Assembly: GCA_025774865.1 (NCBI GenBank)
Contig: JALGZO010000486.1
Span: 1 to 7,173 of the forward strand
Reading direction: 5' to 3'
DNA: 7,173 nucleotides
Origin: a bacterium
GTDB lineage: Bacteria; ARS69
A program made the translations under genes and the position numbers. Positions 353 to 7,173 of this stretch are shown here, in pieces. The notes under the pieces are model-generated. The model was not told the DNA's origin, did no database searches, and saw only the letters and a list, made by a program, of their open reading frames with translations. The stretch's first letter is position 1, and the number at the start of each line of letters is the position of its first letter.

Positions 353-1735
353 ATGACATTGCCCCGTGTCGACGAATCCCGGTTGGGATTCTTCGGTCCG
401 TTCTACAAGACGCACAGCGGCGCACTGTTCGGTCTCGCGAGTGCCGCGGAGGGAATTCGCGACGGGCTGGCCTTTGCGCTCGTCGCCCGTTACTTCTCAC
501 TCCCCGAGTTCGAGGGGATCACGCTCGAGCCGAGCCGCCGCAACATCCAGCCTCCGGAAAACCTGATCCTCCTCGGATCGTCGTCGCTGTTCGTGGACCC
601 CCTGGCGCACAAGACCTCCGGCGGACCGCCGGCCAAGGTGGAGGGCAAGGAGCTCCAGGACCGCATCGACCAGGTTGTCGCGCCGTGCTGCTTCCAGTTC
701 AAGGGGAGCGCAAACCGGGTCGTCGTCAACAAGATCACGGACGAGATCTACCGCCCGGAGCGGGACGAGAAGTCGGGAAAGTTCGTGGACTACGGTGTGA
801 TCCGGCGCGTCTTCCGGCCGGGCGAGAACACGGTTTGCCTGGAGGGAGTCCATCGCGTCGGAACGCTCGGAGTGGCGAAGGCCGCGATGAACGAGAACTC
901 ACTCAACGCCATCTGGGACGCTGTCAACAAGCTCGAGCCTGCGTTCGACGAGTCACTTCCGCTCGAGATCCTCGTGCGGGCTACGTTCTACGACCAGTTG
1001 AAGGACGGCGTCTACGCGATCGACTCGATCACCGCGGTGCCTCTCTTCGTGGTCTACAATCGGCAGTGGATCTTCGATCTCACGGGCGACCGCCGGTGGG
1101 TGGACCAGTTGCCGTGGGACATCCATCGAATCGCGCGGAAGGAGGATCCGCCCGAAGACGCGTCGTCGGACGGACCCGGCGGTCTCCCGCGCGTGGAGAT
1201 CGAAGCGAACCTCCGTGACCTCGACCCCAAGGTCCGGAAGCTCGCGGAGGAGTTGCTGACCAAGCGCGTCGAACCCATCGACACGGATGCCCCGCCGCCG
1301 CCGAACGCCCGTCAGAAGAAGCTACTCCGGGCGCTCGTGACCGACGTGAATCTGTTTCGAATGGTCCTCGTGGGGGTCAAGTTCACGGCCCTCGGGAATG
1401 AGGCCATTCTTCCGCAGGGTCGCACCCGAATCCGGATCCTGCGCAAGCAGTTCTTTCTGCACCTGGCGCTGTGCCGCATGCTCGGTTGCGGTTTCCGGTG
1501 CAACGAGGCGGCGATCCGCGCCTACTTCCCGAAGTTTCGCAGCGAAACCACCGGGAAGAAGTTCACGACGAAGTTCGTGGGATCGGTGCCGGGAAGGATG
1601 CGGGAGGGCTTCGAGGCCCTTCTGGGACCGGCGGCCAACCCGATGGATTACATTCACATCGACTACGCGAGGACGGAGCAGACGTACTCCTTGAGGCTCG
1701 AGAAGGCCTCGCTCGTCTTGCGGCTGCGTGTCTGA
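353..1735 (+). CDS. Hypothetical protein, alpha/beta N-terminal domain plus basic C-terminal domain
   Basis: A 460-residue protein that I cannot name. The ATG at 353 follows a purine-rich GGGAGA at 341-346 with six bases between. There is no signal peptide or membrane helix, so it is probably cytoplasmic. The N-terminal half (about 1-265) looks like a Rossmann-type fold: a hydrophobic strand with LILLGSSS (71-78), then YRPERDEKSGKFVDYGVI (133-150), then a Gly/His-rich GVHRVGTLGVAKAA (165-178). From memory, the order 'G-rich strand, Y-x-P-x-x-D, DYG-hydrophobic, G-x-H-x-x-GT' recurs in uncharacterised bacterial and archaeal proteins; no function is established that I know of. A Pro/Asp-rich linker (264-320, including APPPPN) leads to a Lys/Arg-rich C-terminal half (320-460) with predicted helices and closing strands, possibly a winged-helix-like nucleic-acid-binding domain (inference only). 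It stands alone, with convergent genes downstream. Codon use matches its neighbours. Confidence 0.85.
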   Translation: MTLPRVDESRLGFFGPFYKTHSGALFGLASAAEGIRDGLAFALVARYFSLPEFEGITLEPSRRNIQPPENLILLGSSSLFVDPLAHKTSGGPPAKVEGKELQDRIDQVVAPCCFQFKGSANRVVVNKITDEIYRPERDEKSGKFVDYGVIRRVFRPGENTVCLEGVHRVGTLGVAKAAMNENSLNAIWDAVNKLEPAFDESLPLEILVRATFYDQLKDGVYAIDSITAVPLFVVYNRQWIFDLTGDRRWVDQLPWDIHRIARKEDPPEDASSDGPGGLPRVEIEANLRDLDPKVRKLAEELLTKRVEPIDTDAPPPPNARQKKLLRALVTDVNLFRMVLVGVKFTALGNEAILPQGRTRIRILRKQFFLHLALCRMLGCGFRCNEAAIRAYFPKFRSETTGKKFTTKFVGSVPGRMREGFEALLGPAANPMDYIHIDYARTEQTYSLRLEKASLVLRLRV

Positions 1736-2155: not shown

Positions 2156-2288
2156 TCATCCGGCCGGCTGCTCCGCGAACTGTTCGGCCAGAATCACGTT
2201 CCGCCTCTCTCACCGTCCGGCAGAACGGAATCACGACAATGTTGTCGAGTCCGATCTCCTCCCGGACCCGCCGGACAGCCGTCGGTGG
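2156..2288 (-). pseudogene. ppsA: Relic of phosphoenolpyruvate synthase (pyruvate, water dikinase) C-terminal domain
   Basis: Read leftward, codons from about 2279 to 2202 give AVRRVREEIGLDNIVVIPFC (2279-2220) followed by RTVREA. This closely resembles the segment of the PEP synthase C-terminal TIM barrel usually read as A-x-K/R-R-V-R-E-E-M-G-L-T-N-V-x-V-M-I-P-F-C/V-R-T. At about 2200 the match jumps one frame and resumes as NVILAEQFAEQ (2200-2168), which fits the later family segment S-N-V-I-L-A-D-E-F-A-E. The roughly 30-35 residues normally between them are missing, so an internal deletion also changed the frame. A TGA follows at 2158-2156. There is no start codon, the frame is stopped just upstream (TGA inside 2300-2303), and the phosphohistidine and ATP-grasp domains are absent. 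This can only be a decayed fragment. The family match is from memory. Confidence 0.7.
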
Positions 2289-2731: not shown

Positions 2732-4000
2732 ATGGTGAAGTTCGTTCTCCCCATTTGCCTTCTGACCGCGGTCGCCTGTACCTCCGACCCGCGCGGTAAG
2801 ACGATCGTCTTCCCGGTGAGCTCGGTCGGCGCCGAGGCCGACGTACTGCGCGCCCAGATCGCGCGGTTCGAGGAGGAGCGTCCCGATATCCGGGTCGTCC
2901 TGCGCGAAACCCCCGACTCCGCCGACCAGCGTCACCAGCTCTACGTGCAATGGCTCGCCGCCGGGGCCGGCGATCCCGACGTCCTGCAGCTGGACGTCAT
3001 CTGGACGCCGGAGTTCGCCTCGGCGGGATGGATCCTCCCGCTCGGAGCCTTCGAAATCGACGAGACCGTGTTCTTCCCCGGAACGTTGCGCGCGAACCGG
3101 TGGAGAGGCGAGCTCTACGCGATCCCGTGGTTCGTCGATGTCGGCATGCTGTACTGGCGCACCGACAAGCTGGACGCGCCGCCCGCCACCCTCGAGGAGC
3201 TGGAGCAACGCGCCGTCGCCGCGAAGCGGCGCGGCGAGGTGGAGCACGGATTGGTATGGCAGGGAGCGCGATACGAAGGCCTGGTTTGCGTCTTTCTCGA
3301 GCATCTCGGCGCCTTTGGAGGTCGCATCCTGGACGAGAAGGGTCGGCCGGCGGTGGACACGGAGCCCGGACGCCAGGCCCTCGAGTTCCTTCGCCGCTCC
3401 ATCGGCGAAGACGGCTTCGTGCCGCGCGCCGTGCTCACCTGGCAGGAAGAGCAGACGCGGTTCGCATTCCAGAGCGGCCGCGCCCTCTTCCTCCGAAACT
3501 GGCCGTACGCGTACCCGCTCCTCCAGGATCCGGAGGAGTCCGAGGTGGCGGGCAAGTTCGCCGTCGCGCCGTTTCCCGGCACCGCGAACGGCGCCCCCAC
3601 GGCCGCGCTCGGCGGATCCCAGCTGGCGATCAATGCCCGGTCGCGACACCCCGAAGCGGCCTTTGCGCTGATCGAATACCTGATCTCGCCGGAGCGCATG
3701 CTGGAGCGCGCCCGTGCTGCCGGCCAGCTTCCCCCGCGACGCGACCTCTACGATGACCCGAGCCTCGCCGCGGAGCTCGCCGAGGCCTTGCCCATTCCTC
3801 CGGACGAGGCGCGACGCGTCGTCGAGGCAGCGGTCCCGCGGCCGGTGACTCCCGTGTACACGGAGCTCTCGTCGGTGCTGCAGGTATGGCTTCACCGGGC
3901 GCTCTCGGGGGAGGTCGGCACCGATGAGGCGCTCCGGGAAGCTACCGATGCCATGACGGACGTGCTGGATCGGACGACCGCGCGGCGCGACGCCTCGTGA
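2732..4000 (+). CDS. Sugar ABC transporter substrate-binding lipoprotein (trehalose/maltose type)
   Basis: A 422-residue extracytoplasmic solute-binding protein of cluster 1 (MalE/UgpB-like). It would capture a di- or oligosaccharide and deliver it to the two permeases that follow. Visible features: a short hydrophobic signal (about 3-15) with Cys16 as the likely lipidated residue; LQLDVIWTPEFASAGW (85-100) and GELYAIPWFVDVGMLYWRTD (126-145), hallmarks of the group containing trehalose/maltose binders such as ThuE, LpqY and thermococcal TMBP; ARYEGLVC (179-186); ALGGSQLAINARSRHPEAA (292-310); and RPVTPVYTELSSVLQ (370-384). The length is normal. The ATG at 2732 is the only start giving a signal peptide at the N-terminus, yet it has no Shine-Dalgarno, and the lipobox (AVAC) lacks the usual Leu at -3. 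The stop overlaps the next start by four bases. Family assignment is firm; the exact sugar is inference. Confidence 0.93.
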   Translation: MVKFVLPICLLTAVACTSDPRGKTIVFPVSSVGAEADVLRAQIARFEEERPDIRVVLRETPDSADQRHQLYVQWLAAGAGDPDVLQLDVIWTPEFASAGWILPLGAFEIDETVFFPGTLRANRWRGELYAIPWFVDVGMLYWRTDKLDAPPATLEELEQRAVAAKRRGEVEHGLVWQGARYEGLVCVFLEHLGAFGGRILDEKGRPAVDTEPGRQALEFLRRSIGEDGFVPRAVLTWQEEQTRFAFQSGRALFLRNWPYAYPLLQDPEESEVAGKFAVAPFPGTANGAPTAALGGSQLAINARSRHPEAAFALIEYLISPERMLERARAAGQLPPRRDLYDDPSLAAELAEALPIPPDEARRVVEAAVPRPVTPVYTELSSVLQVWLHRALSGEVGTDEALREATDAMTDVLDRTTARRDAS

Positions 4001-4896
4001 CACGGGGGCTGCGACGAAGTGACGGGCGCCTCGGCGTCGCGCTGGTCGCACCCGTGCTCGTGATCATCGCGGTCGTCGTGCTCTTCCCGGCGCTCTGGGC
4101 CGGCTGGGAGTCGTTGCACGCGCACGATCTCAGGCGCGGCGATGAGCCGTCGCAGTTCGTCGGGCGCGCGAACTACGCGGAGGCGCTCGACGACCGTCGG
4201 TTCGTCGGCGCGGTGGGGCGCACTCTTTGCTTCGTGGTCGTGTCGGTGTCGCTCGAGCTCGCACTCGGGCTCGTCTTCGCTCTGGCTCTCGATGGCGCGC
4301 GGCGCGGCACGACGCTCGTTCGGACGGCGGCCCTCCTGCCCTGGGCCATGCCGACAGTAGTGACCGCGCTCATTTGGCGGTTCCTCTTCGAGCCGCCGGA
4401 GGGCCTGGCGCAACGCGCGGCGACCCTGGCGGGAATCGGGGACCCTTCATTCGTGTGGCTCGCGGATCCGGTCGCGGCGTGGGTCCCGGTCATCCTCGCC
4501 GACGTCTGGAAGACGACGCCTTTCGTCACCGTGCTGCTGCTCGCCGGACTCCAGAGCATCGACGATTCTCTCTACGAGGCCGCGCGCGCCGATGGGGCGG
4601 GGGCCTGGGACCGGTTTCGGCACGTGACGTTACCGCTGCTTCGCCCGGCCCTGTTCGTCGCCGTGCTTTTCCGTACCCTCGACGGGCTGCGCGTCTTCGA
4701 CCTCGTCTACGTGCTGACGGGCGGCGGGCCGGGAACCGCGACGGAACCGGTGGCGCTCCACATCTACCAGACGCTCCTGCAGAATCTCCGGTTCGGGTAC
4801 GGGTCCGCACTGTCGGTGATCGTGTTCGGGTTGAGCCTCGGGCTCGCGATCATCCTCGGGCTGGCCGTCGGCCGCCGGACGGAGACGGCGTCGTGA
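3997..4896 (+). CDS. Sugar ABC transporter permease, MalF/SugA type
   Basis: A 299-residue inner-membrane permease, the first of two that would form the channel of the importer. Six hydrophobic segments are visible near 12-34, 77-98, 108-130, 160-183, 216-238 and 270-290. The cytoplasmic coupling helix (EAA loop) reads EAARADGAGAWDRFRHVTLP (194-213), with the conserved E-A-A, Gly200 and Leu-Pro; it is where the ATPase docks. The MalF-type signature TGGGPGTATE (241-250) follows the fifth helix and distinguishes this from the MalG-type partner. The start is GTG at 3997, inside the stop codon of the binding-protein gene (GTGA). There is no separate Shine-Dalgarno, so translation is probably coupled. 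No long periplasmic P2 loop like that of enterobacterial MalF is present, as is usual for this shorter branch. Confidence 0.93.
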   Translation: MTRGLRRSDGRLGVALVAPVLVIIAVVVLFPALWAGWESLHAHDLRRGDEPSQFVGRANYAEALDDRRFVGAVGRTLCFVVVSVSLELALGLVFALALDGARRGTTLVRTAALLPWAMPTVVTALIWRFLFEPPEGLAQRAATLAGIGDPSFVWLADPVAAWVPVILADVWKTTPFVTVLLLAGLQSIDDSLYEAARADGAGAWDRFRHVTLPLLRPALFVAVLFRTLDGLRVFDLVYVLTGGGPGTATEPVALHIYQTLLQNLRFGYGSALSVIVFGLSLGLAIILGLAVGRRTETAS

Positions 4897-5702
4897 GTCG
4901 CGCGGCGGGAATTGCCGCCGTCTTCGCGGTGGCGGCTTCGAGCGGCTTCCCCGTCGCGTGGATGGTCTGGGCCTCACTGCGGCCGGAAGCGGCGCTGTTC
5001 GACGCCGAGGGCGCCGCGGGCGGCTTCGGGTTCGGACACTACGCCGCGCTCTTCGCGGACCGGGACTTCTGGCGGCCGCTGCGCAACTCGATCATCGTGG
5101 CCGGAAGCACGACCTCGCTCTGCCTTCTCGTGGGGTCGGGCTGCGCGTGGGCCCTCGCGCGCCTTCCCCTTCCCGGACGACGTGCCATCCTCGGCGGCGT
5201 CCTCGCTGTCGCGATGCTTCCGCCGATCTCGATCGTATCCCCTCTTTACCTCGCCTTGCGGCGCGTCGGGCTGATCGACACCTACCCGGGACTGGTACTC
5301 CCCTATCTCTCGTTCGCACTGCCGCTCACGGTCTGGTTCCTCGTCCCGTACTTCCGCCAGCTACCGGCTCAGGTGGAGGAAGCCGCGATGATCGACGGAG
5401 CGAGCCGTTTTCGAGCATTCCGAACCGTGACCCTGCCGCTCGCGGCTCCCGGCCTCGTGACGACGGCCATCCTGACGTTCGTCTACTGCTGGAACGAGTT
5501 TCTGTTCGCACTCGCGTTCACGCTCGGAGCCGAGCGCCAGACCGTTCCCGTCGCGATCGCGCTCTTTCGCGGACAGCACCGCGTGCCGTGGGGTGAGGTT
5601 CTGGCGGCCGCAGTTGTGTGCACCGCGCCTCTGGCGGGACTCGTCGCCGCGTTGCAGAAACGAGTCATCCGCGGGCTCACGGTGGGGGCCGTGGAAGGAT
5701 GA
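4893..5702 (+). CDS. Sugar ABC transporter permease, MalG/SugB type
   Basis: A 269-residue permease that pairs with the preceding MalF-type subunit. Hydrophobic segments lie near 5-28, 66-90, 98-122, 132-155, 184-208 and 234-254. The EAA loop is EEAAMIDGASRFRAFRTVTLP (starting at 162; Glu163, Gly169 and Pro182 are the key residues). The C-terminus RVIRGLTVGAVEG (257-269) is the typical MalG ending that contacts the ATPase. The start is GTG at 4893, overlapping the upstream stop as GTGA, with GGAG at 4881-4884 as a ribosome site eight bases ahead. The same frame is open far upstream over the previous gene, but that is a high-GC shadow with no permease features. The stop is immediately followed by the stop of the convergent regulator. 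No ATPase gene follows, so the ATP-hydrolysing subunit must come from elsewhere. Confidence 0.93.
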   Translation: MSRAAGIAAVFAVAASSGFPVAWMVWASLRPEAALFDAEGAAGGFGFGHYAALFADRDFWRPLRNSIIVAGSTTSLCLLVGSGCAWALARLPLPGRRAILGGVLAVAMLPPISIVSPLYLALRRVGLIDTYPGLVLPYLSFALPLTVWFLVPYFRQLPAQVEEAAMIDGASRFRAFRTVTLPLAAPGLVTTAILTFVYCWNEFLFALAFTLGAERQTVPVAIALFRGQHRVPWGEVLAAAVVCTAPLAGLVAALQKRVIRGLTVGAVEG

Positions 5703-7173
5703 TCAGCGGCGGGCGCCCTTGGTCGCCTCGATTCCGAACCGCTGGATCTTCGCGATCAGCGTCGTCCGTGGAATCCCCATCAGCCGCGCCGCCTCCCGCT
5801 TGTTCCCCTCGGCGAGGTCGAGAACGCGCTGAATGTAGTCCTGCTCGACGCGCGCGAAGGTGGGCACGTCTTCGTCCGACTCCGCGTCGGATCGGCTCGG
5901 AGCCGGTGATTCTCCGTCCATCGCCGCCCGCACCGCGCCGAGCCGAGGCACCAATGCCTCGCCGATTTCGGGCTCCTGCGGAAGATGCTCCGGCTGGAGC
6001 TCGTTCGCTCCTTCGGAGTGAACGATCGCGCCGGCGATCAGGCTCTCGAGCTCGCGCACGTTCCCGGGAAGCTCTCGCTCCCGGAGCGCCCCGACGAACT
6101 CCTGCGCCATCCTCGGCGGCGTTGCACCCTCGGGCGTGAACCTCGTCAGAATGTGCTCCGCGAGCGTCGGGATCTCTTCTCTTCGCTCGCGCAGCGGTTC
6201 GAGCCGGATCGTGTACATACGGAGCCGATAGTAGAGGTCGCGCCGGAACGCGCCCCGTTCCACCTGCCGCACGAGCTCGCGATTCGTCGCGCTGATCACG
6301 CGCGCGTTCGTGGGAATGAGCATCGTGCCGCCGACTCGCCGGAAGCCGCGCTCCTGCAGAACTCGCAAGAGAACAGCCTGCGTCTCCAACGGCATGTCGC
6401 CGATTTCGTCGAGGAAGATGGTTCCGTTCGTGGAGCGCTCGAACGCGCCCACGACCGTCGAATCCGCGCCCGTGAACGCGCCCTTCTCGTGCCCGAAGAG
6501 CGCACTCGCCATGAGCTCTCGAGGAATGGCGGCGCAGTTGATCGCTTCGAACGGCTCTCGACTCCGCCGGCTGAGGTCGTGGATCGCACGGGCCACGAGC
6601 TCCTTGCCGGTACCCGTCTCGCCGAGAATCAGGACGGGCAGATCGAAGTCCGTGAGCCGGACGAGCTTCTCGAGAAGCCTCAGCGTGAATCGGCCCTCAC
6701 CCCGGATCGCGTCCAGACTGGGGTGCTTTCGGCGGAGCGCCCGGATTCGGCGAGCGGGGTTCCGTCGCCCCCGCGGCGGCGACCCCGAAGCGGCCGCCGA
6801 CTCCAGGCTCAGCGCCGCCTGCTCCGCGATCCCTTGCACGAGCCGAAGGTCACGTTCCCCATAGGGCTCGCTCGGAAGCTTCGGGCCGAGCGCGACGACC
6901 CCGAAGATGCGCTCCTCGCCCGCGACCGCCGCGACCAGCTCGAGCCCTTGCCGCTCCGCCGCCCGCGCGACCGGGGCGCCGAGGAGGGGAAACTGGCCGA
7001 GAGCGTACGGAAGACCGCCGCGGCCGAGGGCAGTTTCCAGCTTCCGGGTCCATTTGAGACTGAGCTCCGGCGGCTCCGCGAATCCTTCCGCCGCCTCCAG
7101 GCGCAGTGTGTCGTCGTCGTCGCGCGCCAGATACAGCGCCCGGCTCGCGCCGCACGCCCCCATGAGCGAGAGC
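5703..7173 (-). CDS. Sigma-54-dependent transcriptional regulator (GAF-AAA+-Fis), N-terminus beyond window
   Basis: A bacterial enhancer-binding protein that would remodel sigma-54 RNA polymerase by ATP hydrolysis. Counting from the Met at 7163: a GAF sensor domain fills about 1-120; the AAA+ domain spans about 157-385 with Walker A GETGTGKE (181-188), the sigma-54-contacting GAFTGA loop (228-233), Walker B TIFLDE (248-253), sensor I SATN (291-294), arginine-finger candidates R307/R308 and sensor II PGNVRE (366-371). An acidic linker (about 415-435) leads to a Fis-type helix-turn-helix (442-480). All catalytic motifs are intact. The frame stays open to the window end, and the residues before that Met (LSL) suit the first GAF helix, so the true start is probably outside. 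There is no receiver domain in view, so the signal is likely a small ligand or partner protein. It is convergent with the sugar operon with no spacer. Confidence 0.95.
   Translation of the reverse strand, partial: LSLMGACGASRALYLARDDDDTLRLEAAEGFAEPPELSLKWTRKLETALGRGGLPYALGQFPLLGAPVARAAERQGLELVAAVAGEERIFGVVALGPKLPSEPYGERDLRLVQGIAEQAALSLESAAASGSPPRGRRNPARRIRALRRKHPSLDAIRGEGRFTLRLLEKLVRLTDFDLPVLILGETGTGKELVARAIHDLSRRSREPFEAINCAAIPRELMASALFGHEKGAFTGADSTVVGAFERSTNGTIFLDEIGDMPLETQAVLLRVLQERGFRRVGGTMLIPTNARVISATNRELVRQVERGAFRRDLYYRLRMYTIRLEPLRERREEIPTLAEHILTRFTPEGATPPRMAQEFVGALRERELPGNVRELESLIAGAIVHSEGANELQPEHLPQEPEIGEALVPRLGAVRAAMDGESPAPSRSDAESDEDVPTFARVEQDYIQRVLDLAEGNKREAARLMGIPRTTLIAKIQRFGIEATKGARR

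Follow-up and report, generated by a model that had tools for sequence, protein, structure and literature searches.

A short intergenic remnant of a phosphoenolpyruvate synthase gene carrying internal deletions

Between two minus-strand genes of the window, by which we mean the whole 7,173-nt stretch of DNA analysed here (contig 490 of the 785 in its bin, for which completeness is 92.65% and contamination 8.3%), lies an intergenic gap that raises the question whether a ppsA gene once stood there. The product of ppsA is phosphoenolpyruvate (PEP) synthase, also called pyruvate, water dikinase. The gap is bounded by a gene for a 128-aa Phage_holin_4_2 family membrane protein (PF04020; 2291-2677, minus strand; Pfam E = 4e-32) and by an 85-aa frame for a DUF2188 protein (PF09954; 1827-2084, minus strand; Pfam E = 7e-13), whose true start is likely the ATG at 2030. 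An earlier note on this DNA had claimed that two short minus-strand stretches in the gap match the C-terminal barrel of PEP synthase. Using a six-frame translation of 2085-2320, we located both peptides: piece 1, AVRRVREEIGLDNIVVIPFCRTVREAER (2196-2279, minus strand), begins 11 nt beyond the stop codon of the holin-family gene (2291-2293), and piece 2, NVILAEQFAEQ (2168-2200, minus strand), follows in a different frame.

To score this resemblance, we scanned 80 ppsA loci from a contig database and four from a whole-genome search, of which 66 gave a PpsA protein with both landmark motifs. From these 66 genes we built a gap-free profile of 91 columns, which starts just ahead of the xPFxRT motif and reaches the SIGSNDLT motif, and aligned the gap to it locally with frameshifts and column skips permitted. 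Piece 1 falls on columns 10-37 of the PpsA C-terminal barrel, and piece 2 on columns 66-75 plus one further residue. The alignment of 2085-2320 scores 86.2 bits, whereas 400 dinucleotide shuffles of the same stretch reach a mean of 13.4 (SD 2.1) and a maximum of 22.6 bits, placing the real score 35 SD higher. The similarity to PpsA is thus well above chance, and the barrel match claimed earlier is borne out by the kind of frameshift-tolerant search that the earlier note had proposed for 2100-2300. Its second argument, that preserved order and orientation are hard to obtain by accident, also holds: the pieces are co-linear in the profile, and when both are searched jointly against the window by tblastn, E reaches 7e-9 with the PpsA of L090 (MAG Proteobacteria bacterium casp15-mb.167) and 4e-8 with that of L058 (MAG Zixiibacteriota), the two proteins closest to both pieces together.

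Among 18,950 NCBIfam models, hmmscan matched piece 1 to PEP synthase models only, two of them, with E = 4.6e-5 and 6.8e-5. At the DNA level, ppsA of Natrialba magadii is 80% identical to the relic over about 62 nt (E = 5e-6), and ppsA of another genome (G053), intact at the matched place, is 78% identical over 65 nt; for piece 2 alone, Sphingopyxis ppsA gives 92.6% over 27 nt, with a weak E of 0.4. A tblastn search of plasmids with piece 1 returned, among the matches listed, a ppsA annotation wherever one was given. The contig database contains no exact copy of a 39-nt pattern taken from the relic. A 35-nt, 89% DNA match on another contig of the same bin belongs to an unrelated predicted protein (SREDFGLDNI) and was set aside as chance.

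It is extremely improbable that the resemblance to PEP synthase itself arose by chance. The pieces are short (28 and 10-11 residues), and the PF02896 match that the earlier note had anticipated did not materialise, as this Pfam model gave no match to piece 1 at E <= 1; the sole Pfam match of piece 1 is a weak one to NUDIX (E = 0.046), below cut-off. Against this stand the distance from the shuffles, the joint E of 7e-9, the independent DNA matches to ppsA, and the right order of the pieces with a joint that a single deletion can explain. Neither piece 1 (21.4 bits) nor the window stretch in a genome scan (16.4 bits) attains the curated TIGR01418 cut-off, which at 739.75 bits is set for a full-length match.

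We next consider what is left of the gene. The relic comprises ~110 nt of a roughly 2,400-nt ppsA, so that about 95% of the gene is gone. Beyond 2279 on the upstream side and about 2168 on the downstream side there is no more similarity to PpsA, meaning that both outer parts have been lost, and tblastn with complete PpsA proteins revealed no further convincing stretch in the window. One apparent extension of the relic to 1890, a 136-aa tblastn alignment with a PpsA locus (L091), was rejected because it is a forced alignment that crosses stop codons and the DUF2188 gene. As the earlier note had described, residues are missing between the pieces and the frame shifts near 2200: in the PpsA profile, columns 38-65 (28 residues) are absent and the frame switches exactly at the joint. 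A second, in-frame deletion has removed one codon from piece 1 near 2240/2241, at ..GLDNI-VVIPF.., where the residue of column 23, present in 66/66 PpsA proteins, is missing (GLxNxxxM[IV]PF in the family, GLDNIVVIPF here). Compared with PpsA (TIGR01418 / NF005057, with PF02896 as its C-terminal part), the relic retains residues such as GL-N, PFCRT and NVILAEQF. Co-linear pieces with a frameshift, a one-codon deletion and the loss of both ends are what a ppsA pseudogene remnant displays. No open reading frame runs through the phosphohistidine and PEP-binding domains, as a functional PEP synthase would require, and the two pieces lie in different frames. Since the first start codon in the frame of piece 1, a GTG at 2234, lies inside the match, no notable product can be translated from it. 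The scrap cannot encode the enzyme, nor does it have any function in its own right.

The joint between the pieces (GAACGTG, 2195-2201, minus strand) was placed by the profile path, and both of its sides fit ppsA. Read from upstream, it is GAG GCG GAA CGT G, corresponding to E-A-E-R-V in the family; read into the downstream side, it is G AAC GTG ATT CTG, corresponding to S/A-N-V-I-L. Loss of about 86 nt (28 codons + 2 nt) in one event, in an ancestor that we infer, would account for this arrangement. The 6-nt microhomology AACGTG, which would have stood at both edges of the deletion, points to slippage or end-joining as its probable cause, and base frequencies at the two edge sites in 31 high-GC ppsA genes are compatible with one microhomology deletion.

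We then looked for ppsA in the rest of the genome. The intact copy that the earlier note had suggested seeking elsewhere was not found: a profile scan of the bin detected no ppsA over the TIGR01418 cut-off, nor, apart from recognisable paralogous families, any further ppsA pieces. Given this bin's completeness of 92.65% and contamination of 8.3%, the assembly could lack an intact ppsA. Four genomes of the same family likewise gave zero matches over this cut-off; their lack of a detectable ppsA would be compatible with acquisition followed by loss, and equally with ancestral loss. Two intact genes of the bin, both distinct from the relic, do score over their family cut-offs: one encodes a pyruvate,phosphate dikinase (1256 bits with TIGR01828), the other a PTS-family Enzyme I (428 bits with TIGR01417). 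Pyruvate,phosphate dikinase likewise makes PEP from pyruvate, and is the bin's present enzyme for this step. A further gene in the bin (positions 3881-6532 of locus L055, from C518, minus strand) encodes an 883-aa protein whose N-terminal and central (swivelling) parts resemble PEP synthase; it matches TIGR01418 positions 89-334 and 355-452, has no match to the C-terminal barrel, and is of a paralogue type rather than ppsA.

Our preferred reading, to which we assign a probability of about 0.82, is that the relic is the non-functional remnant of a canonical ppsA, a dispensable gene removed by successive deletions. The presence of pyruvate,phosphate dikinase would have made ppsA dispensable; the gene would then have been inactivated and cleared stepwise, with one deletion at the AACGTG microhomology. 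The outer deletions would have halted just short of the holin-family and DUF2188 genes, plausibly at the limit tolerated by selection. The earlier note's proposal that a ppsA gene was mostly lost here stands as far as a remnant with an internal frame-shifting deletion is concerned; that the whole gene once occupied this very spot is the simplest reading, and stays at that strength since the bin and the four same-family genomes yielded no intact ppsA and no relative offers sequence across the holin-DUF2188 junction. Of those four genomes, only G001 has a relative of the holin gene, and there the contig ends within it.

The main rival to decay in place is that the site never held the full gene and instead took up a short ppsA fragment, of native or foreign origin, in the course of illegitimate repair or recombination. 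We consider this unlikely, though it has several points in its favor: only about 110 nt are left, with sharp ends; neither the window nor, by TIGR01418 and beyond paralogous families, the bin has another ppsA piece; the four relatives lack a match over the ppsA cut-off; and the adjoining DUF2188 gene suggests a spot that may have received foreign DNA. That gene is unmatched in all four genomes of the family and has a GC3 of 0.55, compared with 0.78 for the relic and 0.81-0.88 for host genes and neighbours, and on these grounds was possibly acquired. Capture would, however, need later events or an already broken donor to account for the two internal deletions, whereas a decaying whole gene requires no extra insertion.

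A 12-bp direct repeat, GGTCAGCGCGCC, at 1790-1801 and 2296-2307, flanks the DUF2188 gene and the relic, and we considered insertion of both as one block between its copies. Since several further 12-mers in the window also recur at spacings of up to 700 bp, this repeat is no evidence for insertion. The absence of the DUF2188 gene from relatives, its low GC3 and this chance-type repeat hint only weakly at the rearrangement of flanking genes that the earlier note had entertained.

It is very improbable that the scrap was placed in the gap by a misjoined read or contig. The bin is fragmented and contaminated to the degree given above, which speaks for such an error, but a chimeric join would import intact coding sequence rather than a piece with 86-nt and 3-nt deletions, and misassembly is unlikely precisely because the piece itself carries them. 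The relic also resembles the host in GC and GC3, and at 0.67 the window has the same GC as other contigs in the bin. Retention of the relic as regulatory DNA for the DUF2188 gene or its messenger, as a promoter-upstream region or leader, is improbable too, if slightly less so, and none of our results favours it. No promoter emerged at this site from a simple sigma-70 scan. The window contains no RNA families or tRNA.

Returning to stepwise deletion of ppsA, we regard the relic as an ordinary pseudogene remnant. Bacteria are well documented to delete disabled genes rapidly (Kuo and Ochman, 2010, PMC2916853), and failed horizontal transfer seems to be the source of many prokaryote pseudogenes (Liu et al, 2004, PMC522871). 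The relic resembles known bacterial remnants in being a disabled intergenic homologue with a frameshift and deletions, as deletional bias predicts (PMC522871; PMC2916853); in contrast to surveyed pseudogenes, it is smaller than is usually accepted, the "recent" set of PMC522871 having required >100 aligned residues. It shows that a canonical PEP synthase was once present in an ancestor or past guest of this little-known lineage. The relic is noteworthy solely for the absence of an intact copy in the bin and the four relatives examined, and is useful as a test case for detecting very small gene relics.

Several other features of the window were recorded. A perfect 13-bp inverted repeat, CGGTGGGCCTCCG / CGGAGGCCCACCG, with a 2-nt gap (1744-1771), lies between the DUF2188 gene and a convergent gene for a 460-aa protein (353-1735, plus strand), and with the T-run that follows it on the minus strand is probably a terminator. 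The 460-aa protein has no Pfam or NCBIfam match and apparently belongs to a family without a name; a 43% identical relative occurs in another genome of the same family (G002) in different surroundings, adjoining what we take to be a 2-hydroxyacyl-CoA dehydratase activator-like gene. On the other side of the holin-family gene, 2732-5702 (plus strand) encodes a sugar-type ABC transporter with a binding protein and two permease-like genes, the permeases judged from sequence. A gene for a sigma-54-type regulator, likewise so judged (5703-7163, minus strand), is convergent with the transporter and ends directly beside it.
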